From the IMG/VR virus record IMGVR_UViG_3300008120_000234, positions 1-30,802 of that record: a DNA stretch of 30,802 nt; one strand, 5' to 3'. Under the pieces are notes generated by a model, which worked only from the letters and a program-made list of their open reading frames with translations, did no database searches and was not told the DNA's origin. The stretch comes from a virus. Both the position numbers and the translations under genes were made by a program. This document shows, piece after piece, positions 9,346-27,371 of the stretch. Position 1 is the first letter of the stretch. The number at the start of each line of letters is the position of its first letter.

Positions 9346-10361
9346 TGTCTACTTCAGAGGAAATAGTTGATAAGGCTATAGACTATGCTTTAAGTCAAGT
9401 TGGTAAACCATATGTAAACACTCCGCCAGGAGCGAGACCTCCAGGATCATGGGACTGCTCAAAACTAACTACCTGGGCCTATAGCATAGCAACTGGTGGC
9501 AATGGTTATAGCGGTGGTAAAATACAATTAACTCCATATACAAGAACTCAGGTTAATCAATGCGTTAAAATACCAGGAGTATCACCATCCAACGGGTCTG
9601 CTAATTTACAACGAGGAGACCTGTTGTTTTACTTTGAGCAAGGCGCTCACCATGTAACTATGTATATAGGAAGCGGACAACTTGTACATGCTGGATCTCC
9701 TGTTGAAGTTCAATCATTGTGGACGCCATGGAATACAACACACTTTACTAGTGCTGCTAGGCCTCCAACAATTGGTGTAATATCTGGGGATGGCTCAAAT
9801 GATAAAGAAGATAAAAGCAATCAGAGAGTGGTTAAGACTACTAGATCTGTAGGTAAAGGGGCTATCTCTTTATCTGGAGTATACGGAACTACTCAAACAG
9901 CCCGATTCGCAGCCATGAATCTTTCCAATGAAACCGTATTCCTGAATGCAGAGGGGTTTGGCGATGTTCTCAATGGAGCAGAAGACGGCCTTCTTCAAAT
10001 TGTTGCTAACACAGTTATCCCTGGAGATCAATACGAATTAAAGAAACTTGTGCCAGGGGGAAGAAATAGTTATGAAATAACTATTGATACTGAATCTGTA
10101 CAGAGTGAATCTCAGGCAGAAGCGGTGGCATCAATGATATCTAGATCATTCTCATACCAATATAAATCAATAAGTGTTAAAATATTCGGCAACCCGCTAA
10201 TTCAAATAGGTGACATAGTTAAATTTAATTTTTATTCTGGGAAAGTGACTAGTTCAACAAATGATTACTACATCGTAACTAGAATATCTCACGACTTTGA
10301 CGGAGGGCTATCTACAACCCTTACAATAAAACCATTGATTCAAACGGTTTCGGTGGTATAA
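9345..10361 (+). CDS. Tail peptidoglycan hydrolase: NlpC/P60 domain plus baseplate-like C-terminal domain
   Basis: 338 residues. The first 130 or so form an NlpC/P60 cysteine peptidase: ALSQVGKPYV, catalytic Cys38 in SWDCSKL, GDLLFY near 91-96, catalytic His103 in HHVTMYIGS and His115 in LVHAG as probable third residue. NlpC/P60 enzymes cut peptide bonds in the peptidoglycan stem. In a tail gene cluster this suggests local wall opening during DNA injection rather than lysis from within. After a charged linker (about 145-165), residues 165-338 are beta-rich and end in a domain (KSISVKIFGNPLIQIGDIVK, YYIVTRISHDFDGGL) resembling C-terminal domains of tail hub proteins. No signal peptide is visible, which fits a virion protein. 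The stop codon overlaps a candidate promoter. Confidence 0.85.
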   Translation: MSTSEEIVDKAIDYALSQVGKPYVNTPPGARPPGSWDCSKLTTWAYSIATGGNGYSGGKIQLTPYTRTQVNQCVKIPGVSPSNGSANLQRGDLLFYFEQGAHHVTMYIGSGQLVHAGSPVEVQSLWTPWNTTHFTSAARPPTIGVISGDGSNDKEDKSNQRVVKTTRSVGKGAISLSGVYGTTQTARFAAMNLSNETVFLNAEGFGDVLNGAEDGLLQIVANTVIPGDQYELKKLVPGGRNSYEITIDTESVQSESQAEAVASMISRSFSYQYKSISVKIFGNPLIQIGDIVKFNFYSGKVTSSTNDYYIVTRISHDFDGGLSTTLTIKPLIQTVSVV

Positions 10362-10362
10362 T
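10335..10362 (+). promoter_or_regulatory. Candidate promoter, extended -10, overlapping a stop codon
   Basis: TTGATT (10335-10340) is followed after 16 bases by TATAAT (10357-10362), preceded by TGG, making a TGnTATAAT extended -10. The TAA stop of the hydrolase gene is inside the TATAAT. A start of transcription near 10369 is predicted, just before ATG 10379. Confidence 0.45.
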
Positions 10363-10378
10363 TATATGGGAGTAGACC

Positions 10379-10780
10379 ATGAAAAAGCCAGATAATCAAA
10401 GAAATGACTTAGAGGCATTACGCAGACAACTCAGGCAAGAATTCAAAGGAATCGCCCTTGAACTGATAGAAGAAAAGATAGACTTAGTTCTTCTGGACAA
10501 TGAAGGAATTACTGGAACATCATCAACAGATGATAATCCAGAAGATGGAACAGGGGATGATGACGATGATGATAAGGACAAAGATCCAGCCCCAGCCCCA
10601 TTCGTAGAAGTAAAGTTTAGGAATAATAACGGTACTTTTACTAGGGCTACAGAGTCCAACTCCTTTGGAGACATATTAGTTGCTTCAGATGGCACTGCCA
10701 CCGTAAACGTAGTAGGAAGAATTTTTGACGATACGCCTGGAATAGAAAGTTACAAGATAAGGATAAAGAGAATTGATTAA
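10379..10780 (+). CDS. Small tail-region protein with Asp-rich linker
   Basis: 133 residues in three parts. Residues 1-40 form a charged amphipathic helix, probably a coiled coil. Residues 50-70 are an acidic linker with a run of Asp (DGTGDDDDDDKDKDP), coded by GAT/GAC repeats. Residues 75-133 are a small beta-rich domain ending in Lys/Arg. I do not recognise the family. The position between the tail hydrolase and the fibre genes suggests a structural connector or a chaperone of tail proteins. GGGAG about six bases upstream supports the ATG. It overlaps the next gene by eight bases. Confidence 0.6.
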   Translation: MKKPDNQRNDLEALRRQLRQEFKGIALELIEEKIDLVLLDNEGITGTSSTDDNPEDGTGDDDDDDKDKDPAPAPFVEVKFRNNNGTFTRATESNSFGDILVASDGTATVNVVGRIFDDTPGIESYKIRIKRID

Positions 10781-11705
10781 GGGTAGATATGTTGTAAAGA
10801 TGGATGATAACGTTAAGGAATTTAATAATGTTATCACAACAGAGGGCCTTGCTATAATAAGAAACTATCTCGCTGGGAATACATCTAATTGGGCGGGATC
10901 AATAGCAGTAGGCACTCTTAATTCATCTGCCCCATCTTCATCTGACTCCAAACTAGAATTTGAAATTGCTAGAGTGCCTGTTCTTATTTATAGTGTTGAG
11001 GACAATGAAATAGTTTTAAACGCAACTCTATCTTCAGAAATAGAAGGCAGAGTGTATGAACTTGGAGTATACCCAGCAGTATCAAACGCGGCCTCCCTTG
11101 GATTTGATGACAAGGTAATAGCAACATTTTCTGAAAATTGGACTGACGAGTTCGATGTTCCATTAGGCTCATCTAACTTTTCTGGAACAGAAGAGGCTGT
11201 AGAAGGTAGGTCAGGATATCGAAATCTAATCGTTGGTGCTAGCGGCATAGAAGCATACTTAGAATCTGGAATAGATGTTTCTGGTTATTCTCAACTAGAC
11301 AGTTTTACTGTTTTATATAATGTTACTGCTACAGGCGCAAACAGAACTGTCCGAGTAGAATTTGTAGATGATCAATTACCCACGGCGGGTACTAGATACT
11401 TTGACTTTGTTCTTAATGGATCTTCTACAGGATACAAAACTGTAACAGCACTTATAGGAAACTTTACTTCAACTGGTAATTTTAATAACAATGTTTCAAG
11501 AATTATTATTACATCAGCAGCCGCCTCAGGATGCACAGTTCAATTAGATGCTATGAAGTTTGACGACGCAGATGAAACAAACCTAGATTTTGCCCTAGTA
11601 AGCCGTGCCATAATTGGAACTGTCGGCGGGAATACTTCAAATGACTACATAGTAAAACCATCTGGCGTAGAAATGGACATAGAGTACAGGCTGGAGATAT
11701 CCTAA
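10773..11705 (+). CDS. Putative minor tail / tail fibre connector protein
   Basis: 310 residues with a TTG start; AAGGA lies nine bases upstream. The next in-frame ATG (10800) has a much poorer site, so TTG is preferred but not certain. The N-terminal part (ITTEGLAIIRNYLAGN, SIAVGTLNSS) resembles the beginnings of phage fibre or collar-type proteins. About residues 110-270 read like a beta-sandwich with alternating hydrophobic strands (VRVEFVDDQLP, KTVTALIGNFTSTG, CTVQLDAMKFDD). The C-terminus ends in DIEYRLEIS. It is placed directly before the Fn3 fibre with one base between. The tail role is from context. Confidence 0.6.
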   Translation: MIKGRYVVKMDDNVKEFNNVITTEGLAIIRNYLAGNTSNWAGSIAVGTLNSSAPSSSDSKLEFEIARVPVLIYSVEDNEIVLNATLSSEIEGRVYELGVYPAVSNAASLGFDDKVIATFSENWTDEFDVPLGSSNFSGTEEAVEGRSGYRNLIVGASGIEAYLESGIDVSGYSQLDSFTVLYNVTATGANRTVRVEFVDDQLPTAGTRYFDFVLNGSSTGYKTVTALIGNFTSTGNFNNNVSRIIITSAAASGCTVQLDAMKFDDADETNLDFALVSRAIIGTVGGNTSNDYIVKPSGVEMDIEYRLEIS

Positions 11706-11706
11706 T

Positions 11707-14337
11707 ATGGCAGTGGTTCAGGGAAAGACTCTTACATTAAAAGGGCTTGCTCCTGGTGCTACCTATGTTTTAGAAGTACAGTCAGTACCTAAAAAGGGAA
11801 AGCCTTCTAAATGGTCAAGGCCTATAAAGTTTAATACAAATAGTAAAGATGTTCCTCCACCAGCCATAACAAATCTTGAAGTTGCATTCGACGGAGCAGG
11901 ATTTACAGCAACCTGGGATGGTTCAGCCGCGCTAGCGGAGAAAGATTTTGCCTATTTTAAAATTAATCTTACCTCTCCAGACTTTCCATCTATCACAAAA
12001 ACTTACGCATCACAATCAGAAAGTTTCTCCCTTGACTACGATTCTATGCTATTTGCATTCGGAGGAATTGCTAATCCAATAACAATAGAAGTAATATCTG
12101 TAGATAGAACTGGGAATCAAAGTGCTGGGGTAAGCGCAACTGGTGGTAATGAGCCTCCCGCCGCCCCCACTAATGTTGCTGTTGTTGCAGAAACGATGGG
12201 ATATAGAGTTTCCTGGGACACTCCAACTGAAACAGATTACTCTTACTCTAAAATTTATGAATCTTCTACTGTATCTGGAACTTACACAAGTATAGATAAT
12301 GTCACCGCAACTCCATCTTCAATAAAGGTTGTTGGATACAGTACAAGATTTGTTAAGGTTTCTCATGTTGACACCTTTGGCGGTGAGTCAGAATTATCAC
12401 CATCTGTTGGAATTTCAGTAACTCCAATAAATCCAGTAACTGTTGATACTACTCCACCAGATCAAAGAACATCCATAACTTACACAGCAGGAGTCGGACA
12501 AGTAGAGGTTTCCTGGACAAACCCAACTGATCCTACTAATAATTCTGATATTGCTGGGGTAACAATTAGATATGCAAGAATATCTAGCCCTTCAAATTAC
12601 ACATGGGTAGATGTTCCATTCACTTTCGCAGCCCCAGTTACATCAGCCACAATAAGCGTACTTCTTCCTTTATCTGGATACAATTTTTCAATATCTACTT
12701 ATGATAAAACACAGAATAGAACGGCATATTCAACTTCTACTCAGGTAACTACCTTAGCAGATACAACTCCACCACCTAGACCAGTAGCACCAACCGTATC
12801 TGCTGGCGCAGCAGCGGGTGGACCTATGATGGTGAGAGTAACACAATCTGCGATAGAGCATGGAACTACCACTCCATTGCCATTAGATACATATTACTTC
12901 AGAGTATTTATGTTAAATTCTGGATTTTCTACAGCACCATCTCCAGGAGATGCAACCAATCCTAATTCTACAGAGGTAGGACTTCTATTTGCAGCATTCA
13001 ATGGCGGAGATGCACAAGAGAAGTTCTTTGTTCCATTATTAGAAGGAGAGCAACGATACTTCTATACTAGAGCAGTAGATACTAGCGGTAATGTTTCTGA
13101 TGCATCTTTAGCAGATCAGTCAGATGTTATGGTGGTATTCAACAATGCTTATATTTCAGATCTCTCTGCTGATAAAATTACTGCCGGAAGAATAAACGCT
13201 AATGAATATATCCAAGTTGGCACTACATCAGAGCAAATCACGATTAAAAGTACTAGCACTTTAGGTCAAATTTATTCTGGAGTCGGAACATATAATAATT
13301 CCAATACTGGAATATACATAGATACTGCTGGACAGTTTTCATTAAAGAATAGGCTAGCATTTGATGGAACTAACTTATCATTACAAGGTTCTATAACTGC
13401 CACTGGAGGATCTTTTACTGGTAATGTTCAATTAAATGGCGGATCTTTGTATGCTGGATCAAGTCCATCATCTGGCGCTAGATTAATAATGAACCAAAAT
13501 GGACTTACTGCATATAATTCATCCAATGTTTCAACATTTACTATTGATGCTGCTACCGGAAATATTTCATTATCTGGATATCTTCAAATTGGAGGGGCTG
13601 CCAGTGATGTTAATGCAGGCGGAACAACCATTAGCGGAAATAAAATTAGAACTGGACTTATAGCATCGGCATCATGGAATACTGTCACGCCTACTACTTT
13701 TACAACAGATGGTAGCACAGTAATAAATCTAACAGGAAATAGTATTCATGCTCCGAATTTCTATGTTGCAGGGGGCAACGCAGGATTTCTTGGACAGGTA
13801 ACAAGCACTGGTTTAATAGTAAAGGGTGGAACTACAGAATATCCATACACTAGATATAATTCAGGAGTTCAAAGTTCTCAATCATCTACTTATTCTCTAC
13901 TATCTGACGATGGTAAAGATTTAATATTTAAGGCTCCAGCCGCAGGCCCTGCAAAATTAAGATGGCTAGATGTAAGTGATAGGCAAAGAGGCACCCTTGG
14001 CTGGGAGACTGATGCAGAGCAGGGCGGAGATGCGGTTTATTCTAACACTATGGTACTTAGAGCAAATGCTATAAAAAGCGGATCAACAGATATCCCTGGT
14101 CAAGTATTAATTCATGCCCACGGCGCGGGAGGAATTATTAATTTAACTACTGGAACTGCTGGTGAAGTTAGAATAAATGGAGCAACAGTAGAAACCCCCG
14201 CATCTGTGCAAAATAGATATAAAAATGGTAATTATTCCCCAACTTCACCAAATACAATTAAGTATGGAACTGATGCTGTGACCGTTGCCTATCCAACCGG
14301 AACAGCCAGTAACGGAGATATCTACCTAAGATATTAA
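11707..14337 (+). CDS. Tail fibre/central tail protein with fibronectin type III repeats
   Basis: 876 residues. Residues 1-50 look like only the second half of an Fn3 domain (LKGLAPGATYVLEVQSVPK, then FNTNSKD). They are followed by about four Fn3-like units with the usual W..P, D....Y and G.S.LS patterns and Pro-rich joints (DTTPP at about 250 and 355). From about 484 the protein changes to a fibre stalk: YISDLSADKITAGRINANEY is typical of the C-terminal part of host-specificity J-like proteins. Then come short beta-repeats rich in Gly, Ser, Thr and Asn to the C-terminus. Such proteins lie at the tail tip and take part in host recognition. GGAG about ten bases upstream supports ATG 11707. Confidence 0.8.
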   Translation: MAVVQGKTLTLKGLAPGATYVLEVQSVPKKGKPSKWSRPIKFNTNSKDVPPPAITNLEVAFDGAGFTATWDGSAALAEKDFAYFKINLTSPDFPSITKTYASQSESFSLDYDSMLFAFGGIANPITIEVISVDRTGNQSAGVSATGGNEPPAAPTNVAVVAETMGYRVSWDTPTETDYSYSKIYESSTVSGTYTSIDNVTATPSSIKVVGYSTRFVKVSHVDTFGGESELSPSVGISVTPINPVTVDTTPPDQRTSITYTAGVGQVEVSWTNPTDPTNNSDIAGVTIRYARISSPSNYTWVDVPFTFAAPVTSATISVLLPLSGYNFSISTYDKTQNRTAYSTSTQVTTLADTTPPPRPVAPTVSAGAAAGGPMMVRVTQSAIEHGTTTPLPLDTYYFRVFMLNSGFSTAPSPGDATNPNSTEVGLLFAAFNGGDAQEKFFVPLLEGEQRYFYTRAVDTSGNVSDASLADQSDVMVVFNNAYISDLSADKITAGRINANEYIQVGTTSEQITIKSTSTLGQIYSGVGTYNNSNTGIYIDTAGQFSLKNRLAFDGTNLSLQGSITATGGSFTGNVQLNGGSLYAGSSPSSGARLIMNQNGLTAYNSSNVSTFTIDAATGNISLSGYLQIGGAASDVNAGGTTISGNKIRTGLIASASWNTVTPTTFTTDGSTVINLTGNSIHAPNFYVAGGNAGFLGQVTSTGLIVKGGTTEYPYTRYNSGVQSSQSSTYSLLSDDGKDLIFKAPAAGPAKLRWLDVSDRQRGTLGWETDAEQGGDAVYSNTMVLRANAIKSGSTDIPGQVLIHAHGAGGIINLTTGTAGEVRINGATVETPASVQNRYKNGNYSPTSPNTIKYGTDAVTVAYPTGTASNGDIYLRY

Positions 14338-14342
14338 TTATT

Positions 14343-14351
14343 TGATAGAAT
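14343..14351 (+). promoter_or_regulatory. Candidate extended -10 promoter giving a leaderless mRNA
   Basis: TGATAGAAT fits the TGn extended -10 with TAGAAT at 14346-14351. Exactly six bases separate it from ATG 14358, so the A of the start codon is at the expected +1. No Shine-Dalgarno sequence is present before that ATG. No good -35 is visible. Confidence 0.45.
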
Positions 14352-14357
14352 GACACT

Positions 14358-16556
14358 ATGCCCCTAAGAGTATACGACAATAATGCATGGCAGAGCCCCA
14401 CTAGCATAAGAATATATAATGACAGTGAATGGAAGACTGCCTCTGCCGGATATGTATATGATATGGGCATGTGGAGGGTTGTTTTCCCAGATCCAATAAT
14501 TCCATCGATAGTCTTTACTGATACAGACGCAGGAAGAGATCCAGACGATGGACTTTTTTATGTTGGAGCATCAGTAAAAGTTACTAACGGGTCTGGACAG
14601 ATTTTTGCTGAATTATTTTTGGGCTCTACTCCTTCTGGAACTCCAATACAAACTAAAAATGTTTCAGCGTTTTTTGTAGATGGTAATGATAGATACTATG
14701 AACCTTATTTTTATAGTTCATCATTTACTAATAATCAAAATTATTGCATTCGTGTAACCGCAACATCTATTACTGAAAATCAATCAGTTCTTAGTTCAGG
14801 TGCCATATACCTTGGAGTCCCAACTGTTTCTATAATATCGTTTAGTGTTCCATCTACAAGTTCGTTCTCTGTATCATGGTTATCACAAAATCAGTACAGA
14901 TGGCTAGTGACGATAAGGCCACAATCAGGATTTGGCATGGGATATGTTTCTGCTGAAGACGAGTTTGGCAATCCAATGTTTACTGTTGGATCTCAGACTT
15001 CTCATAGTGCAACTATTAGTCCTCCCCTTTTAGGGAATACTGGATATATTCTTACGGTAGAAGTTGAAAATAATAATTTTAGTGCAGTGGAAGATACAGA
15101 AACATTTACTAGTCCAAATGATCCAACTTCTAGCATTCAAATTACTGACGGCTCTATAGTCCAGACATGCAGTTCTTTAGGGCTATCATGGACTGCACAA
15201 AACACAGTATATGGATATGCAAAAATATATACCGCAGACTTTCCTGACGCAATTCCTACTTACACAGAAATAACAAGTAAAAGATTTTATTGGACTAGCC
15301 AAAGAACACATACATTTACAGGTTTAGAGTCAGGAAGGCAATATTTATTAGAAATAATTGGATACAACATTAACGATATTGCTGGACAGCCAGATAACGA
15401 ACTAACGGAGACTCTTCCCCCCTCTGCCAATGCTCCAACCAACCTTGCAGCAACATCAGATTATTGGGGTAAGAATGCTAGTTTCACATGGACAGCAGCA
15501 ACGGCAAACTGTACTACAGTAAGTGGATATAGACTTGAATATAAACTTAGTACATCTTCAACATGGACTAATCTATCAAACAGCATTGCATCTAGTGCAA
15601 CATCATTTTCTGTAGGTTCGGAGTTCGATTCCATCTTTACGCCTGGTAGGACATATAATTTTAGACTTTATGCTAAAACTTCTATATATGGGGAAGGTCC
15701 CCCTGCAAGCGTAAACCTTACAATGAATAACAATCCTTATGCCGTACAAATTACTGGAACTAACACTATAGAAACCTCTTCAACATCTACTCTTACAGCG
15801 CAACTTGTAAATGCTGCATATGAAAATCTTTCCCGCTCTGGATTTGTAATATCCTGGAGTTTTATTGCTGGCCTTCCTCCAGGGGCGGCAGGTTCTTCCG
15901 TGTCCCCAACATCATCTACAACTAATTCTTCAGGACAGGCTACTACTACTTTTTCTTCAAGTACAAACTCTGGTACAGGTACTGTTTATGCCACAACATC
16001 TGGGATAAGTACATTCGGAGGTGGGCAAAGGACCATGACTGTAAATTTGCGTGTAGGACTGACCCCCACCCTATCAACAGCAAGAACCAACTTTGGGTAC
16101 GACGTAACACACTCCAATTACAACTCTTTGTACTCATATAGCGGAACTGTAACTAATGGAGGATTTAATTTTGACGGCGTGTGGAATGATGGGTTTTATA
16201 CCATTGTTATTCCACCAATTAATACGGCATTCCCAGTAGCATCAAGGAATGCTTTGGTAAGTGTTACCTGTACTTCAGGAACATGGACCGCACAGCCATC
16301 AGCAACGACCCAGGTAACTAGTAGTAGAACTGGGTATGCTGATGCAAGTGCTTCGGTTTCTAATTCTCCAACAGGAACCTTATCTTTTTCATATACTTGG
16401 TACTTCGGTAACGGAGATTTTGCAGGGAATGGTCAGACTCTTGCTATTACTTCTGCAATGAGAGGACGGAACATGTATTGTATTGTTATTGCAACAAGAA
16501 CTGGTGGAACTCAGGGATTCCAGGCTCAGTCTAATACTATAGCAATCCCAGCATAA
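14358..16556 (+). CDS. Tail adhesin with N-terminal 14-residue repeats, Fn3-like and Ig-like domains
   Basis: 732 residues. It begins with three repeats of exactly 14 residues, each opening with an aromatic-acid-Trp motif: VYDNNAW (5-11), IYNDSEW (19-25), VYDMGMW (33-39). Residues 50-350 hold about three beta-sandwich units with Fn3 character. Residues 358-455 are a clear Fn3 (FTWTAATANCTTVSGYRLEY, YNFRLYAKTS). About 457-560 looks like a bacterial Ig-like Big_1 domain (TSSTSTLTAQLV, then TTNSSGQATTTFSSSTNSG). The last 130 residues form another Ig-like unit with CTSGTW and YTWYFGNG. It is probably a virion surface adhesin or decoration protein acting with the fibre before it. The start lacks a ribosome site and may be leaderless. 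Confidence 0.75.
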   Translation: MPLRVYDNNAWQSPTSIRIYNDSEWKTASAGYVYDMGMWRVVFPDPIIPSIVFTDTDAGRDPDDGLFYVGASVKVTNGSGQIFAELFLGSTPSGTPIQTKNVSAFFVDGNDRYYEPYFYSSSFTNNQNYCIRVTATSITENQSVLSSGAIYLGVPTVSIISFSVPSTSSFSVSWLSQNQYRWLVTIRPQSGFGMGYVSAEDEFGNPMFTVGSQTSHSATISPPLLGNTGYILTVEVENNNFSAVEDTETFTSPNDPTSSIQITDGSIVQTCSSLGLSWTAQNTVYGYAKIYTADFPDAIPTYTEITSKRFYWTSQRTHTFTGLESGRQYLLEIIGYNINDIAGQPDNELTETLPPSANAPTNLAATSDYWGKNASFTWTAATANCTTVSGYRLEYKLSTSSTWTNLSNSIASSATSFSVGSEFDSIFTPGRTYNFRLYAKTSIYGEGPPASVNLTMNNNPYAVQITGTNTIETSSTSTLTAQLVNAAYENLSRSGFVISWSFIAGLPPGAAGSSVSPTSSTTNSSGQATTTFSSSTNSGTGTVYATTSGISTFGGGQRTMTVNLRVGLTPTLSTARTNFGYDVTHSNYNSLYSYSGTVTNGGFNFDGVWNDGFYTIVIPPINTAFPVASRNALVSVTCTSGTWTAQPSATTQVTSSRTGYADASASVSNSPTGTLSFSYTWYFGNGDFAGNGQTLAITSAMRGRNMYCIVIATRTGGTQGFQAQSNTIAIPA

Positions 16557-16568
16557 TAAGGAGAGATT

Positions 16569-16784
16569 ATGGATAATGAATTAACAAATGAAGAAAAGAT
16601 AGGCATAGTAAGTAATTTAATAAAAAACATTAAATCTACTAAATATCGTGTAGAACAAGAAATACTAGCAGAGCAAAATTCCAGCCACCCCTCAGAGGGC
16701 TGGATTGAACAGGCTAATGTTCAAGTCAACAACCTGACAGAAAAAATCAATTATCTAGAGCAAAACTTAGATAATTTGCTATAA
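16569..16784 (+). CDS. Small helical protein, paralogue of the next gene
   Basis: 71 residues, unrecognised. AAGGAG stands a few bases before the ATG. The sequence is highly charged and helical with a heptad-like C-terminal half (VNNLTEKINYLEQNLDNLL), so a coiled coil is likely. It resembles the following 74-residue protein: both start M-[DE]-N-x-L, then EKI.IV....KN...[ST][KR]Y.VE, suggesting a tandem duplication. There is no membrane segment, so it is not a holin. Its place just after the adhesin suggests an accessory tail, chaperone or oligomerisation role, but this is a guess. Confidence 0.6.
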   Translation: MDNELTNEEKIGIVSNLIKNIKSTKYRVEQEILAEQNSSHPSEGWIEQANVQVNNLTEKINYLEQNLDNLL

Positions 16785-16789
16785 AATAG

Positions 16790-16795
16790 TATAAT
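16790..16795 (+). promoter_or_regulatory. TATAAT box in the gap between the two small helical genes
   Basis: TATAAT lies in the 27-base gap. No TGn and no recognisable -35 are visible, so it is a weak candidate. The predicted transcription start, near 16802, would fall inside the ribosome site AGGAGGTG (16800-16807) of the next gene. Confidence 0.3.
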
Positions 16796-16811
16796 ATATA
16801 GGAGGTGTAAT

Positions 16812-17036
16812 ATGGAAAATAATTTAGTAAGTGTGGATGAAAAAATACACATTGTAAATCAATTTATGAAAAATCTAGCATACTCTAGATATAATGTAGA
16901 GTTATCGCTGATGCTAGAAAATTCTGTTTCCAGCCCAAATCAAAACAATGTAGATAGTTTCACTACACAGTTACAAGAAATAGACGACAAGTTAGCAGCA
17001 TTACAACAAGAACTAGTAGAATTAGAAGGTCAATAA
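16812..17036 (+). CDS. Small helical protein, paralogue of the preceding gene
   Basis: 74 residues, unrecognised. AGGAGGTG is an excellent ribosome site for ATG 16812. The N-terminal half matches the preceding 71-residue protein (DEKIHIVNQFMKN, SRYNVELSL), and the C-terminal half is a coiled coil (LQEIDDKLAALQQELVELEG). The stop shares bases with the next start (TAATG), so translation is coupled. Confidence 0.6.
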   Translation: MENNLVSVDEKIHIVNQFMKNLAYSRYNVELSLMLENSVSSPNQNNVDSFTTQLQEIDDKLAALQQELVELEGQ

Positions 17037-17597: not shown

Positions 17598-17598
17598 G

Positions 17599-17859: not shown

Positions 17860-17870
17860 ATAGGAATTTT

Positions 17871-18912: not shown

Positions 18913-18923
18913 CAAAACAGAAT

Positions 18924-19268: not shown

Positions 19269-19271
19269 ATA

Positions 19272-19523: not shown

Positions 19524-19734
19524 TGAGTCTACTCATGTAAGAGTAGAACTTCAGTTCGTCAGAAATCTAGGTAACTATGAAAGCCTAAGAGTGTCCATCG
19601 GTGTGGAAGACTTTGTTCGACAGGGAGAAAGTGTTGACGGAGCAACCGATAGGGTGTATAGTTTTGTTGAGAATAAGTTAATCGAAAAGGTTTCTGATAT
19701 TGAGCAGGAGTTAAAGAATGGCAAAGGAAGATAG
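19507..19734 (+). CDS. Small conserved-type phage protein
   Basis: 75 residues of alternating beta and helix: VRVELQFVRNLGNYESLRVS, then IGVEDFVRQGESVDGATDR and a C-terminal helix. The 'R.lgNYES..v..gv' pattern is familiar from small proteins of many phages with replication genes nearby, but I know no function for it. The start overlaps the previous gene, and the 3' end contains the GGAG for the next. Confidence 0.55.
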   Translation: MTTKNSESTHVRVELQFVRNLGNYESLRVSIGVEDFVRQGESVDGATDRVYSFVENKLIEKVSDIEQELKNGKGR

Positions 19735-20041
19735 CAAACTTACATATTCGTTGCTGAGTCTTTATGAGACTTTATATACTCAAAAATATAGCAAGAAGCC
19801 AAGAATTAACAAGTATAAAGAGAAGTGGGCTATGGGTGATGTTATCGATTCCATTGGATTCGACCGCGCCAAGGAACTTCTACAGTATTATTTTAAGGTG
19901 ACCAAGCAAGGGCATCCACTTCAATGGTTTTTCTATAATTTTGATCGCCTAGATGATATGCTTTTACAGTCACAAGAAGATGAATTGCGTCGTAAGAAGA
20001 TGCGGGAGGCAACCAAAAAGATGGTGGAGGAAAGGTCATGA
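19718..20041 (+). CDS. Unknown protein just before the helicase; possible helicase partner
   Basis: 107 residues, mostly helical and basic, rich in Lys, Tyr and aromatic residues (LYETLYTQKYSKKPRINKYK, FKVTKQGHPLQWFFYNFDRL), ending in a Lys/Arg/Glu-rich helix. GGAG lies before the ATG, and the stop overlaps the helicase start (ATGA). In other phages a helicase loader often precedes the replicative helicase. This protein has no AAA motif, so a loader or adaptor role is only a guess from position. Confidence 0.55.
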   Translation: MAKEDSKLTYSLLSLYETLYTQKYSKKPRINKYKEKWAMGDVIDSIGFDRAKELLQYYFKVTKQGHPLQWFFYNFDRLDDMLLQSQEDELRRKKMREATKKMVEERS

Positions 20042-21264
20042 ATACAGAAGCAGCAGTAATCACTTCAGTATGTAAGAATAAGGATATCTCCACCATTCTG
20101 GCAGACAATGTGGATGAGATCTTTCAGTCTCACCGCGACGTTTGGGAGGGACTTAAGTCGTATTATTACAAGTTTAAGTCTGTTCCAGAAGTTAATGTTC
20201 TCACAGAGAAGTTCCGCGACTTTGAGCCAGTAAATGTAAACGCTGAGACTGGGTACTATGTAGATCAGTTAAAGAACGAGTACCTTGCTGGACGTATGCG
20301 TAATCTTCTCATGAAATCTGGAGCATCGCTAAAGGATAATGCCGCCGCTCGCGTTCTTTCTGATATGCAATCAGAGATTGCCTCTCTTTCACGACTGACT
20401 AGTAACGTCAGAGATGTTGACTTGACTGACTATGAGTTGGCTGAAAAGCACATTCTCGCTGTCCAGGAACGCTCTGCAATTATGGGTGGTAGCCCTGGAA
20501 TCAAAAGTGGTTTTACTGCCCTGGACCTTGCCTATCCCACAGGAATGGCACCAGGACACCTTATCGTGGCTATTGGTTGGCCTGGTCGTGGCAAGACCTG
20601 GATGACCTCCTACCTTGCGTGTAAGGCGTGGGAGCAGGGATTCAAGCCTATGATTGTCTCTCTAGAGATGAGTCCAGAGAATATGCGTGACCGCATCTAC
20701 ACTATGCTAGGTAGCGGTATGTTTAGGGCTTCAGACTTTTCCCGTGGACAGATTAACATTGATGACTTCCATCACTGGGCCAAGAAGCGCTTTGACGATA
20801 AGAATGGATTTATTCTAGTATCTAACGAGGGAACAAATGAAGTTACTCCACAGACAGTACAAGGTAAGATCGATCAGCATCGCCCCGACCTTGTTATCTG
20901 CGATTATCACCAGTTGTTTAATGACACTAAGAAGTCTAATTCTGAGGTTGAGCGGAACCGAAATATCTCGCGGGAATTCAAACTACTAGCAGTTCGTAAC
21001 AATATTCCTGTCATTGATATTACAGCAGCCACAATGGATGATGTATCTGATCAGGATGCCCCACCACTACTTTCTCAGGTAGCATGGTCAAAGGCTATTG
21101 AATACGATGCTGACATGGCTATGGCTGTTCACCGCCACCCAGATACAAACATTATTGAAGTTGTCTCACGAAAGAATAGGCACGGTACGGACTATGCCTT
21201 CTATCTTGACTGGGATATTGATCGCGGTATTGTAAAAGAGATCTATGATGATATCCCTGTCTAA
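20038..21264 (+). CDS. Replicative DNA helicase, DnaB/gp41-type
   Basis: 408 residues. The C-terminal RecA-like ATPase domain has Walker A at 180-187 (GWPGRGKT), a DnaB-type VSLEMSPENMRDR segment at 208-219, and Walker B near 286-292 (LVICDYHQL). The end (MAMAVHRHPDTNIIEVVSRK, then NRHGTDY) matches the arginine-finger region of DnaB-type helicases. The first 130 residues are helical and would be the primase-binding N-terminal domain. It should form the hexameric ring that unwinds the fork with the primase two genes downstream. GGAGG is just upstream. Arginine codons are mostly CGN, unlike the tail genes. Confidence 0.9.
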   Translation: MNTEAAVITSVCKNKDISTILADNVDEIFQSHRDVWEGLKSYYYKFKSVPEVNVLTEKFRDFEPVNVNAETGYYVDQLKNEYLAGRMRNLLMKSGASLKDNAAARVLSDMQSEIASLSRLTSNVRDVDLTDYELAEKHILAVQERSAIMGGSPGIKSGFTALDLAYPTGMAPGHLIVAIGWPGRGKTWMTSYLACKAWEQGFKPMIVSLEMSPENMRDRIYTMLGSGMFRASDFSRGQINIDDFHHWAKKRFDDKNGFILVSNEGTNEVTPQTVQGKIDQHRPDLVICDYHQLFNDTKKSNSEVERNRNISREFKLLAVRNNIPVIDITAATMDDVSDQDAPPLLSQVAWSKAIEYDADMAMAVHRHPDTNIIEVVSRKNRHGTDYAFYLDWDIDRGIVKEIYDDIPV

Positions 21265-21266
21265 TG

Positions 21267-21272
21267 TATAAT
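21267..21272 (+). promoter_or_regulatory. TATAAT box between helicase and next gene
   Basis: TGTATAAT follows the helicase stop by two bases. The ATG at 21283 is ten bases after the box, so transcription from here would give a leader of only about four bases. No -35 is visible, and the TG is one base closer than in a true extended -10. Confidence 0.35.
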
Positions 21273-21282
21273 TAAAGACAGG

Positions 21283-21561
21283 ATGAATAAAAAACTGAAG
21301 AGTTTTGGAATGCAGGGTCAGATAGCAGATGATGCCTCTATTCCACGCTTGCGTAAGCACTATGAGAACATTATAGAAACTGATATGCGTACGCAAGGGT
21401 ACGTCCCTATATTAGATCTTGACATACAATTTTCCTTAGAGTACGATGAACCTACTGATACATACAATTTTGAAATAATTGTATATGGAGTATACGTCGG
21501 AAAGAAGAAAGCCCATTCGTATATAGGCTTCTCTGGACAAACTTTAATACCTAAACAATAG
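21283..21561 (+). CDS. Small protein of unknown function between helicase and primase
   Basis: 92 residues. Residues 1-30 are basic and helical. The remainder is a small alpha/beta domain (YVPILDLDIQFSLEYDEPTD, FEIIVYGVYVGKKKAHSYIG). I do not recognise it. The placement between the helicase and the primase makes a replication role possible. A weak ACAGG lies immediately upstream of the ATG. Confidence 0.6.
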   Translation: MNKKLKSFGMQGQIADDASIPRLRKHYENIIETDMRTQGYVPILDLDIQFSLEYDEPTDTYNFEIIVYGVYVGKKKAHSYIGFSGQTLIPKQ

Positions 21562-21569
21562 GAAAATAA

Positions 21570-22526
21570 ATGCTTTTAGAAAGTTACAGCCCCTCGCATA
21601 TGCGAGCAATTGTAAAGCAATTGGGGCTACAGGTAGTTAGTGAGACTTCTAATGATTTCCTATGCCTATGCCCATTTCATGGGAACAGGCATACTCCATC
21701 CTTCTCTGTAAGTCACCAGAAGGGTCTTTATCTGTGCTTTAATCCATCATGCGGAGCCAGCGGTAACATTGTAGAATTAGTAAAGAATATGACTCAGAGA
21801 AATGAGTATGAAGCATTACGCTTTATTATGTCTGCAAAGCAAGAGGCAGCCGCACATTTTGAAGATGAGTTGGCAGAAGTTTTAGATGATAAGCCAGACT
21901 TTGAGGAGTTCTCTCAATCTACTTTAGATAAGATGTATGAGCAGATGGATGAACGTTCAGAATCCTACTTTGCTGGACGAGGTATTAATCGTGAATCTAT
22001 AGATCACTTTAAACTAGGATACTCAAAGAATCAGGATATGGTAATTGTCCCAGTGCATTCTCCAGATGGAGTTCCAGTAGGATTAGTAGGTCGATCTATA
22101 GAAGGAAAGTCTTTTAAGAATAGTACTGGCCTGCCAAGAAATAAAACTATGTTTAATATCCATAGGGCTAAAAGGATGGGCGGCGCGGTTGTAATTGTGG
22201 AGTCCTCTTTCGATGCTATTAGAGTGCATCAGTCTGGATACCCTAATGTAGTGGCGACCTTGGGTGGATTTATATCTAAGATAAACATCCAGAACCTAAA
22301 TAGAAACTTTACCAAAATTATTATCATGACAGATGCCGATCCCGCAGGACGGGAACTAGGAAAGACCATAGCATCTTCATTGAAGAATAAAGAAATCTTG
22401 TGGGCACACTACTCAAATGATATGCTATACCCACATGATGCTAAAGATGTGGGCGACATGACAGAAGAAGAAGTTAAAACTTGTATTGAAAATGCCCTTG
22501 CAGATTACGAATATAGAATGCTATAA
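21570..22526 (+). CDS. DNA primase, DnaG-type (CHC2 zinc finger and Toprim)
   Basis: 318 residues. The CHC2-type zinc finger is at 32-61: CLCPFHGNRHTPSFSV (Cys34, His37), then YLCFNPSCG (Cys56, Cys61) and GNIVELVKN. The Toprim domain includes VVIVESSFDAIRVHQSG with Glu211, and IIMTDADPAGRE with Asp255 and Asp257. It ends soon after the Toprim fold, so it lacks the helicase-binding C-terminal domain of bacterial DnaG. It would make RNA primers for the phage polymerase. AGGA lies before the ATG. The stop codon is part of the TATAAT box before the ssb gene. Confidence 0.9.
   Translation: MLLESYSPSHMRAIVKQLGLQVVSETSNDFLCLCPFHGNRHTPSFSVSHQKGLYLCFNPSCGASGNIVELVKNMTQRNEYEALRFIMSAKQEAAAHFEDELAEVLDDKPDFEEFSQSTLDKMYEQMDERSESYFAGRGINRESIDHFKLGYSKNQDMVIVPVHSPDGVPVGLVGRSIEGKSFKNSTGLPRNKTMFNIHRAKRMGGAVVIVESSFDAIRVHQSGYPNVVATLGGFISKINIQNLNRNFTKIIIMTDADPAGRELGKTIASSLKNKEILWAHYSNDMLYPHDAKDVGDMTEEEVKTCIENALADYEYRML
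21588..21628 (+). repeat. Nested inverted repeats (three-way-junction-like) at the 5' end of the primase gene
   Basis: AGCCCC (21588-21593) pairs with GGGGCT (21623-21628). Between them are the perfect palindrome CTCGCATATGCGAG (21593-21606) and two CAATTG copies (21607-21612, 21618-21623) separated by TAAAG. Together they could fold into a closing stem with two inner hairpins, within the first 20 codons of the primase gene. The closing stem and the inner hairpins share one base on each side. Confidence 0.45.
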
Positions 22527-22527
22527 T
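22498..22527 (+). promoter_or_regulatory. Candidate promoter of the ssb gene, extended -10
   Basis: TGCTATAAT at 22519-22527 is a perfect TGnTATAAT. TTGCAG at 22498-22503 with an 18-base spacer is a weak -35. The TAA stop of the primase gene lies in the box. Transcription would begin near 22534, giving a leader of about 42 bases with short inverted repeats before AGGAG (22562-22566) and ATG 22576. Confidence 0.5.
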
Positions 22528-22575
22528 TGAAAGATAGGGCATCCTATAGCCCAATTACACTAGGAGATATATATT

Positions 22576-23235
22576 ATGGGATTAGTAAAGGGCCTCAAGG
22601 CCATGAACCAAACAATTGATCGCCCATCATCATCTTCAGATGGTCCTCGCGGTCGCTGGCTGAAGTTGAATGACGGTCAGAGCGTTAAGATTAAATTTCT
22701 TCAGGAACTTGATCCTGATTCCCCCAATTACAATGACAAGGCTGGACTAGCATTTATTGCTGTTGAGCATACCAATCCATCAGACTACCGTCGCAAGGCT
22801 TTGTGTAGTGTTGATGACCAAGGCCGTTGTTTCGGATGCGAAATGCATCGTCGTGACCCAAAGGCTGGGTGGAAGGGTCGCAGCCGACTCTACTGCAACA
22901 TCCTTGTTAATGATGGAAATGAAGATCCTTATGTAGCAATCTTTAGCCAGGGAACTGGTCCTAAGTCTGCTACACCAGAAATTATCCAGTATGCTGGAGA
23001 AACTGGCAGCATCACATCTAACACCTGGCGCTTGAAGCGCACAGGAGAGCGCACAGATACAAATTACAGCATCATCCCACTACCTACTGATTCAGACCCA
23101 GTAGACTTTGACGCACTTGAACTATTTGATCTTGAAAAGATTGCAGTTCGTGACGTTCCCTATGATGAGCAAGAGGCCTTCTACACAGGCGCATCATCTT
23201 CAGATGACTCTTCCTCATCAGCAGTTGAGTGGTAA
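22576..23235 (+). CDS. Single-stranded DNA-binding protein (gp32/gp2.5-like role)
   Basis: 219 residues. The features are those of phage-type ssDNA-binding proteins: a basic N-terminal part, a core with RWLKLNDGQSVKIKFLQELD, a Cys-containing segment (CSVDDQGRCFGCEMHRRDP) that could hold a zinc ion, a YCNILVNDGNEDPYVAIFSQ strand pair, and an acidic/Ser-rich tail of the kind that contacts helicase and polymerase (SSSDDSSSSAVEW). All 14 arginines use CGN codons, none AGA/AGG. The gene has its own candidate promoter and is closed by a strong terminator, fitting a protein needed in many copies. The exact family is inferred from layout and neighbours. Confidence 0.75.
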   Translation: MGLVKGLKAMNQTIDRPSSSSDGPRGRWLKLNDGQSVKIKFLQELDPDSPNYNDKAGLAFIAVEHTNPSDYRRKALCSVDDQGRCFGCEMHRRDPKAGWKGRSRLYCNILVNDGNEDPYVAIFSQGTGPKSATPEIIQYAGETGSITSNTWRLKRTGERTDTNYSIIPLPTDSDPVDFDALELFDLEKIAVRDVPYDEQEAFYTGASSSDDSSSSAVEW

Positions 23236-23246
23236 TTAATATGCTA

Positions 23247-23285
23247 TGCTAGGGGGCGTAGAAATGCGCCCCCTAGCAGTATTTT
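23247..23285 (+). terminator. Strong intrinsic terminator after ssb
   Basis: TGCTAGGGGGCG (23247-23258) pairs perfectly with CGCCCCCTAGCA (23267-23278). The loop extends the stem by a T-G and an A-T pair around a GAAA tetraloop (23261-23264), and TTTT follows at 23282-23285. It separates ssb from the polymerase gene. The ribosome site AGGAG (23286-23290) of the polymerase begins right after the T run. Confidence 0.8.
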
Positions 23286-23294
23286 AGGAGATAA

Positions 23295-26200
23295 ATGTCA
23301 GACTTAGTACACCTTCATGTCCATAGCCACTATAGCCTAATGGATGGTCTATCATCCCCAGCAGAGTTACTTTCAGCAGCCAAGGATCTAGGACAGACCG
23401 CATTAGCCGTTACAGATCACGGCACACTATCTTCACACCGCGATATGCAGAAGTCTGCACGCGAGGCGGGATTAAAGCCTATCCTGGGAGTAGAGGCATA
23501 CATCTCAGAAACAGACAGGTTTGACAAGCGAGACATTAAAAGTCGTGACGATAACACTCAGGTATTTAACCATATAATCCTTCTAGCAAAAGACCAAGAG
23601 GGTCTTCAGAATCTTCAGAAGTTGTCTGAGTTGGCATGGAACGAGGGCTTTTACCGTAAGCCTCGCATCGACTTTGAGGTATTGAGCGATTATGGAGATG
23701 GACTTATTGTTCTCTCAGGATGCCTTAATGGTTTAATCTCTAAGGCTATTCAGCGCGGGGATGAAGATAAGGCTCGCACTATGCTTAAGTGGTTTAAGAA
23801 TCGTTTCAATGATGATTTCTACATGGAAGTGCAGCCACATAATCCGCCAGAAATTAATCATCAATTGCTGTCATTGGCAGATGAATATAAGATTAAGCCA
23901 GTCACTACCTCAGACTGCCATTTTGCGCGGGAAGATCAAAGAGCCGTAGAAGAAGCCCTACTTATTCTATCTACTAAGCCTAACATGAATAAGGATTCCT
24001 CATACGCATCAGGCAAGGCTATCAAGGATGTATTTGAGAGGCTTAACCACCTGTATCCAGATCGTCCCATTTCCTTTGAGGGCTGGGATCTATTTATTCA
24101 GAGCCGTCTAGACATTGATAGTTGGTATAAGAAGTCTGGAATTGATCGAACAGATATTTATGAAAGTACTTTAGAGATTGCTGATAAGATCGGAGAATAT
24201 GAATACTATGAGAATCTATCCTTACTTCCCAGGCCAAAGAAAAACTCCAACACTCAACTCAGGGAACTCTGTGAGAAGTCAATGGAAGAGCGCGGCATTA
24301 CAGATCAAACATACATTGATCGACTTAACGAGGAACTTTCGGTAATTGAAGACAAGGACTTTGCCTCGTACTTCTTAGTTGTTGCCGATATGATTCAATA
24401 CGCTAAGGGTAATGATATCTTAGTAGGTCCAGGACGAGGATCAGCCGCTGGATCTCTAGTATGCTATCTGCTGGGAATTACAGAAGTAGACCCAATTGAG
24501 TATGATCTACTATTCTTCCGATTCATCAATCCTGAGCGAAATGACTTTCCTGATATTGATACTGACTTTATGGATAGGCGTCGTAACGAGGTAAAAGAAT
24601 ACCTACGCAAAAAGTTTAAGAATGTTGCGAGCATTTCTACATTCCAATACTTTAAGGATAAGGGCGTAGTTCGTGATGCTTCCCGTGTCTTTGCTGTACC
24701 TCTAGGTGATGTGAACAAGGCACTAAAGGGTATCGAAACCTGGGAGGATTTTGAGTCCAACCAGAATACAAGATGGTTCCGTGACAAGTACCCAGAAGTA
24801 ACAGATTTAGCAAGCAAGTTGCGTGGTCGCATTCGTGCAGTTGGAGTTCACGCAGCAGGAGTAGTTGTTGCTAAGGAGGCTATTTCTAAATATGCCCCGA
24901 TGGAAGCTAGAAGTGATGCTAATGATAAAGTTAGCGGTCGCGTCCCAGTTATTGCTTATGATATGGAGCAAGCGGCAGATATTGGTCTAATTAAGTTAGA
25001 TGCTCTAGGGCTAAAGACTCTATCTGTTGTTAAAGACACTCTAGATATCATTAAAGATAGAACTGGTAAGGACATTGGTCTACATTCTATCTCCTTAGAA
25101 GATGATTTAGTTTATCAAGACTTATCTAACGGGTTTACCAAGGGAGTCTTCCAAGCAGAAGCAACACCGTATACGAATCTTCTAATCAAGATGGGCGTGG
25201 AAAGATTTGAAGACCTAGTAGCATCCAATGCTCTAGTTCGCCCAGGTGCTATGAATACTGTAGGTACAGCGTACATTGCACGCAAGCAGGGGCGGGAACA
25301 AATTAAATACGTCCACGATATCATGAGGCCATTTACTGAGCGTACATATGGTGTTATTATCTATCAGGAGCAAGTCATGCAGGCCTGCGTCCATCTTGGC
25401 GGTATGACATGGGCAGAGGCCGATAAGGTTAGAAAGATTATTGGAAAGAAGAAGGATGCTAAAGAATTCGAACAGTTCAGAGAGAAGTTTGTTTCTGGCG
25501 CTACAAAGCACATTAGCAAAGAGGACGCAGAGCATCTATGGCACGACTTTGAGGCACACGCAGGCTATTCATTCAATCGTTCCCATGCAGTTGTGTACTC
25601 CATGCTCTCTTATTGGACTGCTTGGCTTAAGCACTACTACCCTCTGGAATTCATTTTTGCTATCCTCAAGAACGAGGGGGATAAAGATGCACGAACAGAA
25701 TACTTACTGGAGGCTAAAAGGTTAGGTCTTAAAGTTCTACTACCTCATGTCAATGAATCAGATATTGAATTTAGTTTGACAGGTAATAGCATTCGATTCG
25801 GTCTAGCAGACATTAAATTTATTTCTGAGGGAATTAGCAATAAACTAATTGCTGCCCGTCCATTTAAAAACTATGAAGAACTATTAGAATTTTCTAAGGC
25901 TAAGGGAAGTGGAGTCAATAGTCGCGCCATTGCAGCATTGAATGCTATTGGAGCAGCAGCATTTGATGATAATCCTAGAAGTGGAAACGAGAGTGAAAAT
26001 TTCTATGAGTATCTAAACATCCCCAAGTTTGATGTAAAAGGTCTAGAACCATTCATTAAGGCACAGGTTTCTCCACTAGAAGATTTCACTGAAGATGGAT
26101 GCTATGTTCTTATGGCAATGGTTAAATCAATCAAGAAGGGAAGTGGATGGTCCAGAGTAGAGTTAGTAGACGATACAGGAGCAATTGGCATTTTCCACAC

Positions 26201-26570
26201 AGAAAATACTCAGATCGAAACAGGGAATATGTATTTCTTCCTAGTTGGAGACAATCGAATTCATCGATATGTTACCATAGAAGATGTAGTTGAGCGTAAG
26301 CCAGATCCATTCGTAGAATTTCTATATATGCAAGAGACTCTTGCAGGAGAAGGCGAAAAGTATGTAGTTGACTTTACTAACTACAAAACCAAGGCTGGGA
26401 AAATGATGGCACACGTTATAGTCGCCAATGGTAATAAAGAAATGCAAAGACTTATCGTATTCCCGAAAACATATCCAATAGCGCTAGGCAAAATGAAGGC
26501 GGGAACTATTGTTGATGTGCAAATAGGTAAGATGGAAGATGGAACACTAACAGTTAGGAATGTAGGATGA
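23295..26570 (+). CDS. dnaE: DNA polymerase III alpha subunit (C-family, DnaE-type)
   Basis: 1091 residues, close to the length of bacterial DnaE. The PHP domain comes first: HLHVHSHYSLMDG at 6-18, then VTDHGT, GVEAYI, YMEVQPHN and TSDCHF. Metal-binding positions appear intact, so proofreading by PHP is possible. The palm has GPGRGSAAGSLVCYLLG near 378 and the catalytic PDIDTDF at 419-425. GVHAAGVVVAKEA and the fingers/helix-hairpin-helix regions follow, and a C-terminal OB-like part is near 940-1090. The phage therefore carries its own replicase core. AGGAG is five bases from the ATG. The terminator just upstream means that it is read either by readthrough or from a promoter I cannot see. 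ATGA overlap with the next gene. Confidence 0.93.
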   Translation: MSDLVHLHVHSHYSLMDGLSSPAELLSAAKDLGQTALAVTDHGTLSSHRDMQKSAREAGLKPILGVEAYISETDRFDKRDIKSRDDNTQVFNHIILLAKDQEGLQNLQKLSELAWNEGFYRKPRIDFEVLSDYGDGLIVLSGCLNGLISKAIQRGDEDKARTMLKWFKNRFNDDFYMEVQPHNPPEINHQLLSLADEYKIKPVTTSDCHFAREDQRAVEEALLILSTKPNMNKDSSYASGKAIKDVFERLNHLYPDRPISFEGWDLFIQSRLDIDSWYKKSGIDRTDIYESTLEIADKIGEYEYYENLSLLPRPKKNSNTQLRELCEKSMEERGITDQTYIDRLNEELSVIEDKDFASYFLVVADMIQYAKGNDILVGPGRGSAAGSLVCYLLGITEVDPIEYDLLFFRFINPERNDFPDIDTDFMDRRRNEVKEYLRKKFKNVASISTFQYFKDKGVVRDASRVFAVPLGDVNKALKGIETWEDFESNQNTRWFRDKYPEVTDLASKLRGRIRAVGVHAAGVVVAKEAISKYAPMEARSDANDKVSGRVPVIAYDMEQAADIGLIKLDALGLKTLSVVKDTLDIIKDRTGKDIGLHSISLEDDLVYQDLSNGFTKGVFQAEATPYTNLLIKMGVERFEDLVASNALVRPGAMNTVGTAYIARKQGREQIKYVHDIMRPFTERTYGVIIYQEQVMQACVHLGGMTWAEADKVRKIIGKKKDAKEFEQFREKFVSGATKHISKEDAEHLWHDFEAHAGYSFNRSHAVVYSMLSYWTAWLKHYYPLEFIFAILKNEGDKDARTEYLLEAKRLGLKVLLPHVNESDIEFSLTGNSIRFGLADIKFISEGISNKLIAARPFKNYEELLEFSKAKGSGVNSRAIAALNAIGAAAFDDNPRSGNESENFYEYLNIPKFDVKGLEPFIKAQVSPLEDFTEDGCYVLMAMVKSIKKGSGWSRVELVDDTGAIGIFHTENTQIETGNMYFFLVGDNRIHRYVTIEDVVERKPDPFVEFLYMQETLAGEGEKYVVDFTNYKTKAGKMMAHVIVANGNKEMQRLIVFPKTYPIALGKMKAGTIVDVQIGKMEDGTLTVRNVG

Positions 26571-26755
26571 GTGAACAAGAAGTAGAATTAAATCTGGGCA
26601 AAGTGCTTATGGCTATCCTTAAAGGATATGGCAAAGTTGAGGTAAGCCCACAGGCGCTACTTGAAGAAGTAGACGAGAACTACCAATTAAGAATTGACTT
26701 CAATGATGAAACAGAAATGTTTGAGATTACTTTAGAGGATGAAAATGCATCTTGA
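26567..26755 (+). CDS. Small acidic protein
   Basis: 62 residues, unrecognised. An N-terminal helix (LNLGKVLMAILKGYGKVEVS) is followed by a two-strand acidic part (YQLRIDFNDETEMFEITLED). It starts inside the polymerase stop (ATGA) and ends inside the start of the MazG gene. A polymerase accessory role would be a guess. Confidence 0.5.
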   Translation: MSEQEVELNLGKVLMAILKGYGKVEVSPQALLEEVDENYQLRIDFNDETEMFEITLEDENAS

Positions 26756-27086
26756 TGATTTAGCAAAAAATTTAAATGATACAGCAGTAGAAAAAGGATT
26801 CTGGAGCCCATTGACAAGAATGGAGCAGCAGGACGACTTTATTTTCTTTGCCAAGCAACTGGCAATGGTTCACTCAGAAGTGACAGAAGCATTAGAAGCA
26901 TTGCGTAAAGACCAAGGAAATGATAAGTTTGTTGAAGAATTAGCAGACATTATCATTCGCGTATTAGACCTATGGGCAGGAATGGATAAAGTTCTCGTTG
27001 GAGGGCTACCATCTATTCACAATACCTTAGTTAGTAAGTCATTAGTAAACAAGACAAGAGATAAACTGCACGGTACTCGCGGGTGA
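26745..27086 (+). CDS. MazG-like nucleotide pyrophosphohydrolase
   Basis: 113 residues from ATG 26745. The ATG at 26739 directly touches GAGG and so lacks spacing, while 26745 has GAGG six bases away. The MazG pattern is present: AKQLAMVHSEVTEALEALRK with Glu45, Glu48 and Glu51, then FVEELADIIIRVLDL with Glu64, Glu65 and Asp68. The protein is one helical half, the usual phage size, and would dimerise. MazG enzymes hydrolyse nucleoside triphosphates to monophosphates. In phages, roles in dNTP balance or alarmone level have been proposed. The TGA stop doubles as part of a candidate extended -10 element. Confidence 0.8.
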   Translation: MHLDDLAKNLNDTAVEKGFWSPLTRMEQQDDFIFFAKQLAMVHSEVTEALEALRKDQGNDKFVEELADIIIRVLDLWAGMDKVLVGGLPSIHNTLVSKSLVNKTRDKLHGTRG

Positions 27087-27092
27087 TATAAT
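27084..27092 (+). promoter_or_regulatory. Candidate extended -10 promoter overlapping a stop codon
   Basis: TGATATAAT is a perfect TGnTATAAT, with the TGA stop of the MazG gene forming the TGn. Nine bases separate it from ATG 27102, and no ribosome site lies between. A leader of zero to three bases is predicted. No -35 is seen. Confidence 0.45.
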
Positions 27093-27101
27093 AGATATAT
27101 C

Positions 27102-27371
27102 ATGGAAGGCTATGTCCTTACTGGTATACAAGATGAATACCTGTTAGTAGTGAAGTCAGAAGACTATGAAACTATCTTATATCTGATAGATAGAATAGCC
27201 GCCAGCAGAAGAAAAGAATTTAAAGAGTTCGCTCTAGAATTAGAAAAGAGTTTAAATGATGATGGTCGCAGAAGAAATTCTAGCGAAACTAGATCCAAAA
27301 ACAAGACAAAGGATTCAACTAGCAACAGAGGTAGACGTAAAAAAGCAGCCGACCCCAAGCATAGGGCTTAA
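27102..27371 (+). CDS. Small protein with basic tail overlapping the recA gene
   Basis: 89 residues. Residues 1-50 form an alpha/beta unit (EGYVLTGIQDEYLLVVKSED, LYLIDRIAASRRKEFKEFAL). From about residue 52 the frame overlaps the recombinase gene by 116 bases, and there the protein becomes strongly basic (GRRRNSSETRSKNKTKDSTS, NRGRRKKAADPKHRA). The basic tail is therefore written in another frame of the recombinase N-terminus. I do not recognise the family. No Shine-Dalgarno; the start may be leaderless. The first 50 residues look more like a normal protein than the tail. Confidence 0.5.
   Translation: MEGYVLTGIQDEYLLVVKSEDYETILYLIDRIAASRRKEFKEFALELEKSLNDDGRRRNSSETRSKNKTKDSTSNRGRRKKAADPKHRA

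Follow-up and report, generated by a model that had tools for sequence, protein, structure and literature searches.

Several genes of phage T4, namely e, soc, 49 and I-TevI, combine a sequestered ribosome site with a late promoter lying upstream of it (PMC3014915, PMC2988022). T4 gene 32, which encodes a single-strand DNA-binding protein (SSB), carries an autogenous operator, and gene 43 of T4 and RB69 has a hairpin operator whose ligand is the DNA polymerase (PMC3014915). On the bacterial side, leaderless mRNAs are reported for Streptomyces lividans (PMC8079986). Here we describe a family of extended -10 boxes at gene junctions of a phage, together with two predicted RNA hairpins, one at the SSB gene and one at the gene starting at 21283, that resemble these systems in part. 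The window, i.e. the whole stretch of DNA analysed, is the entire IMG/VR virus record IMGVR_UViG_3300008120_000234 (30.8 kb, 30,802 nucleotides (nt), 39% GC), and its genes are all on the + strand, as are the boxes and hairpins located at junctions below.

We consider it highly probable that the boxes are promoters read by the host polymerase at particular junctions. They would give selected genes their own transcripts within the co-directional gene block, and the placement of the start would set how each gene is translated. That the boxes are genuine -10 promoters at all can be said with high confidence. The boxes are enriched in gaps and conserved at orthologous junctions, and both hairpins covary. 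The comparison set comprises 80 related freshwater viral loci, retrieved with the polymerase, plus the window. Genes in the relatives were called by a simple script, their starts being predicted and some of them approximate; the relatives are not independent, and counts across them are not counts of events. In the gaps of this set TGnTATAAT is found 136 times, compared with a mean of 5.0 (maximum 11) in shuffled sequence, a 27-fold excess. Over the full set 243 copies lie on the + (gene) strand and 35 on the - strand, about 7:1. In the same gaps neither the reversed pattern TAATATnGT (8 vs 5.0) nor the reverse complement ATTATA (53 vs 92) is enriched. Further, 90% of the aligned gap sites have A or G at +7, the predicted start. 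All six window boxes have counterparts at orthologous junctions in other phages, the one at 14346 through one relative only (L010, with TAGAAT at the same place). An earlier note on this DNA had proposed extended -10 promoters and a test of their enrichment in gaps; that test, run with shuffles on the window and the relatives, favours promoters, and together with the strand bias, the purine at +7 and the orthologous conservation it supports the proposal strongly.

The positions given in that note are all correct: TATAAT starts at 10357, 16790, 21267, 22522 and 27087 and TAGAAT at 14346, with TGn extensions at 10354, 14343, 22519 and 27084, while 16790 and 21267 lack a correctly spaced one. It was also right that stop codons form part of some elements. 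TAA at 10359-10361 and at 22524-22526 lies inside the box, and TGA at 27084-27086 provides the TG extension. The same arrangement is seen in relatives: L108 and L109 both have TGGTATAAT at the junction that corresponds to 10361. A perfect TGCTATAAT at 10850-10858, within the coding sequence of gene 10800-11705, was absent from the earlier list.

Every window gap of 15-49 nt contains a box. The idea of many nested starts in one long operon finds partial support. Most junctions, including those of DnaB and UvsX, have no box, and the promoters are tied to particular genes: in the relatives, boxes concentrate before SSB, the gene after DnaB, the 16812 family and the gene preceding UvsX.

The distance from box to ATG peaks at 6-8, 15-17, 21-23 and 45-47 nt. 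A Shine-Dalgarno sequence (a 4-mer or better) is present in 33% of the 5-10 nt class vs 85% of the 15-18 nt class, and leaderless starts can therefore be separated from short-leader starts. The boxes would fall into four classes: leaderless, short leader with Shine-Dalgarno, box in a hairpin loop (21283) and box upstream of the SSB leader hairpin. The leaderless starts, the SSB leader hairpin and the promoter within a hairpin over a ribosome site go beyond the earlier note and appear to tell the sites apart.

At the SSB junction a box, weak or strong, is found in 70 of 75 relatives. In the window it is TGCTATAAT at 22519-22527, and the stop codon it contains belongs to primase. The predicted start lies upstream of a hairpin, GGGC-AUCCUAUA-GCCC (22537-22552), which begins near +4 of the predicted transcript and would thus head the SSB message. 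It is followed by a leader predicted to be unpaired and rich in A, U and C (22553-22575), with the Shine-Dalgarno AGGAG at 22562-22566, and by the gene itself (phrog_9721, 22576-23235). All 49 distinct box-bearing junctions have a stem of 4-5 base pairs (bp), of which 12 versions occur. It starts 8-11 nt after the box (9 in the window), except for a distance of 4 nt at two junctions for which a different hexamer had been chosen as the box. The loop is 7-8 nt long in 46 of the 49, starts with A and mostly ends with UAUA or UACA. Double changes occur in all five pairs (28 cells; 37 distinct hairpins), a level reached in 0 of 500 shuffles, although the hairpins were excised by a stem search, which biases towards pairing, and the outermost pair forms in only some. 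Native arms also fold better than arms swapped between relatives. The element is specific: 76 of 79 box-plus-hairpin matches are at SSB and only 5 are on the other strand, with no convincing copy at other genes. Clusters 26 and 34, considered as further genes with the SSB spacing, were rejected; their boxes lie inside coding sequence and no such hairpin follows. Rfam gave no match at the gathering threshold, apart from one chance-level match elsewhere, and inspection by eye revealed no consistent pairing between loop and leader. In Streptomyces phages of the Stanwilliamsviridae, TGnTACAAT-class boxes have an AGGCT/AGCCT-type stem downstream in the corresponding position, and in three Rhodococcus phages TGnTATAAT is followed by a weak stem of 3-4 bp.

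T4 gene 32 likewise has a structured element at the 5' end of its message, and there too the leader that follows is unpaired up to and including the ribosome site. In T4 the element is a pseudoknot; here it is a short hairpin with a conserved loop of 7-8 nt, the SSB belongs to a different family (phrog_9721) and the operator role is putative. Gene 43 of T4 and RB69, another replication gene, also has a short upstream hairpin whose loop is conserved; there, however, it lies near the ribosome site, while here it heads the SSB mRNA and a ligand is only putative. By this analogy the SSB hairpin may tentatively be regarded as an autogenous translational operator. It is also possible, though with comparable reserve, that it only shields the mRNA's 5' end against decay with no regulator bound: the stem begins close to +4, a position suited to protection by a 5' stem, and its sequence is free to vary. 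A protein-binding operator suits the data better than such a stabiliser, because the loop is conserved in its first and last bases and its length, the element is confined to SSB and unused at other promoters, and the leader is unpaired up to the Shine-Dalgarno.

Downstream of SSB, before the DnaE polymerase, lies a terminator-like hairpin of 14 bp (23247-23278; the gap folds at -32 kcal/mol, z -6.5), and many relatives have a hairpin in this position too. Flanked by a promoter upstream and this terminator-like hairpin downstream, SSB may therefore be a separately regulated unit, which also speaks against a single operon. Some Streptomyces relatives (L085, L096, L098) have a terminator-like hairpin between primase and the SSB promoter. 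Within 23236-23294 of the window the terminator-like hairpin that precedes the polymerase has a -10-like TGCTATGCT overlapping its 5' base, and TGnTAnnnT is at the same place in four further distinct relatives; TGCTATGCT is possibly, but weakly, indicated as a second promoter inside a hairpin.

The second hairpin is at gene 21283 (21283-21561; 92 amino acids, phrog_17515), between DnaB and primase. Its product has a confident alpha/beta model, no Pfam match, no relative in the PDB and, apart from a single unnamed viral protein, no significant structural match. Here the TATAAT (21267-21272) lies in the loop between a 5' arm, CCTGTCT (21256-21262), upstream of the predicted transcription start, and a 3' arm, AGACAGG (21276-21282), that adjoins the ATG. 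The window hairpin folds at -9.7 kcal/mol (z -2.87; P=0.01 vs shuffled 5' flanks). Most relatives have a box at this junction, frequently in the form TGATATAAT or TGGTATAAT, and in most relatives it is in the loop with the 3' arm over the ribosome site. When compared with shuffled 5' flanks, 15 of 32 junctions of this gene reach P<=0.05; among the control junctions none does at SSB, 16812 and others, and 14% do at 27102. A test for a hairpin around the box in all clusters gave 16 of 30 at 21283 vs 4 of 118 elsewhere, and at no gene other than 21283 was it above chance. Since the pairing register slides between relatives, column-wise covariation was not counted, and shuffles and arm swaps were used instead: native arms fold at -9.2 kcal/mol vs -5.3 when swapped between relatives, and 0 of 20000 permutations were as low. 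Opening the ribosome site would cost 8.9 kcal/mol in the read-through RNA vs 2.9 in the RNA begun at the box; in the window alone, where the stem abuts the ATG, the values are 3.6 vs 0.7.

We think it probable that this hairpin hides the start in read-through RNA, as at least part of its function. RNA arriving from the DnaB side would fold and conceal the start of 21283, while RNA begun at box 21267 would lack the 5' arm and leave the ribosome site open. This is the layout of T4 gene e and I-TevI, where a promoter sits where the 5' strand of a hairpin hiding the ribosome-binding site is encoded, the long transcript is silent and the short one open. Two of its features are found here: a predicted hairpin covers the ribosome site or start codon in the long RNA, and the promoter, by its predicted start, drops the 5' arm. 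The differences are that the promoter in the loop is a host-type extended -10 and not a gp55 late promoter, that there is no relation in phage family, host or gene, and that this case is known from sequence alone. The corresponding gene after DnaB in Moab and Daubenski does not have the hairpin-box layout, which suggests that the element is confined to the freshwater group.

A serious rival, though a less likely one by our estimate, is that the ribosome ending DnaB opens the hairpin, so that 21283 is read from the long mRNA. Members of the main clade have the DnaB stop (ATGTAA, columns 1-6) no more than a few bases from the beginning of the 5' arm, and in the window arm and stop overlap; a terminating ribosome would thus cover the arm. 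Such coupling leaves unexplained the retention of a -10 box in the loop, from where new transcripts would start without the 5' arm; coupling and promoter switching may also act together. It is improbable that the repeat is instead a DNA operator at which a dimeric repressor, perhaps the product of 21283 itself, covers the -10 box. In many relatives the inner part, TTGATA-TAAT-TATCAA, is palindromic, and I-TevI of phage T4 represses its own promoter through an overlapping operator (PMC2988022). However, the arms vary widely in sequence and length with pairing retained, 57 of 436 arm pairs are G-U, which RNA tolerates and DNA symmetry does not, and the predicted 21283 fold has no DNA-binding relative.

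Concerning the remaining boxes, two window genes are candidates for the leaderless class, in which transcription would start directly before the ATG. The predicted start (+7) of the extended -10-like box TGATAGAAT (14343-14351) is the A of ATG 14358, so the mRNA of this fn3-containing tail gene would be leaderless. For box TGATATAAT (27084-27092) the predicted start is 27099, 3 nt before ATG 27102, and this message would be nearly leaderless. A box immediately before the 27102 ATG is kept in relatives, and a box before RecA with the ATG at the start point is conserved in phages Daubenski and Moab. Leaderless mRNAs occur in actinobacteria more widely than in Streptomyces lividans. The likeness is a -10 box 6-9 nt before the ATG and no Shine-Dalgarno; the difference is that the genes here belong to phages and are predicted cases. 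The start of UvsX as drawn (gene 27256-28254) overlaps the upstream gene by 116 nt, and for this reason the true start may be further downstream. In L029, L035, L046, L048 and others (~19.6-22.4 kb), small genes right after tRNA-like sequence have TATAAT or TATACT within ~8 nt of the ATG, which suggests leaderless starts.

Two further boxes would start transcription about 10 nt before the ATG and, with a strong Shine-Dalgarno, allow translation from a short leader. Box TGGTATAAT (10354-10362), whose TAA is the stop of a minor-tail gene, precedes gene 10379-10780 with GGGAG; at this junction L108 and L109 have the same box and L009 has TGGTAGAAT. The TATAAT at 16790-16795 would serve gene 16812-17036, with the strong Shine-Dalgarno AGGAGGTG downstream. 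Relatives of this gene family carry a TGATAATAT-class box, in most cases TGATATAAT, at a distance of 15-18 nt ahead of the ATG.

The window carries genes for tape-measure and minor-tail proteins, DnaB, primase, SSB, DnaE polymerase, UvsX, a Cas4-type exonuclease and RuvC. Its DnaE is 55-57% identical to that of Streptomyces phages of the Stanwilliamsviridae, and its gene order from helicase to RecA is that of BillNye, Daubenski and Moab (DnaB - hypothetical - primase - SSB - DnaE - hypothetical - MazG - hypothetical - RecA). By these two features the phage appears to be Stanwilliamsviridae-like. WhiB was found in 11 of 14 long relatives and, among 14 control genomes, matches only in Corynebacterium; the host is therefore very probably an actinobacterium. 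No -35 element is seen in the aligned gap sites, and the boxes look like the actinobacterial primary-sigma type, i.e. extended -10 without -35, for which recognition by the host primary sigma would be the simplest reading.

Some points weigh against promoters of this kind and the roles given to them. Transcription starts, sigma factor, translational effects and regulation are all deduced from the sequence. The Pfam model Sigma70_r2 has no match in the 14 long relatives, in agreement with recognition by the host primary sigma, but these are fragments, and a phage sigma factor could be encoded elsewhere or be too divergent for the model. The SSB hairpin of the window by itself is no more stable than shuffles (z 0.08), and only the comparison reveals it. 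At 21283 some close relatives (L008, L018, L016) lack clear arms. Finally, the gap enrichment is modest when the window is taken alone: the 13 gaps (plus 6 nt upstream) contain 5 TATAAT vs 1.59 in dinucleotide shuffles (P=0.010, about threefold) and 0.42 expected from mononucleotide shuffles. Over the whole window TATAAT is at chance, with 37 observed vs 39.9 expected on both strands (27 on +, 10 on -). From this it could be argued that AT-rich gaps and TAA stops simply yield TATAAT by chance, but for the box family we reject this as very improbable, given the excess of TGnTATAAT over dinucleotide shuffles in the gaps, its bias to the gene strand, the fixed distances to start codons and the orthologous junctions.

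We found no published transcript map for phages of these freshwater actinobacteria, and no work on transcription in Stanwilliamsviridae in the literature searched. Such phages infect abundant, hardly cultured freshwater actinobacteria, and for them a promoter map, a leaderless class and two covarying RNA elements can be derived just by comparing sequences. It is a rather speculative possibility that the SSB hairpin serves as autogenous operator for a second, independent family of viral SSBs and that the promoter-in-hairpin trick of T4 evolved independently in the same phages. The two elements parallel the classic logic of gene e and gene 32 of T4, although the phage lineages are unrelated. Convergence in phage gene timing thereby becomes testable, as the SSB element is present in the cultured Streptomyces phages BillNye, Moab and Daubenski.

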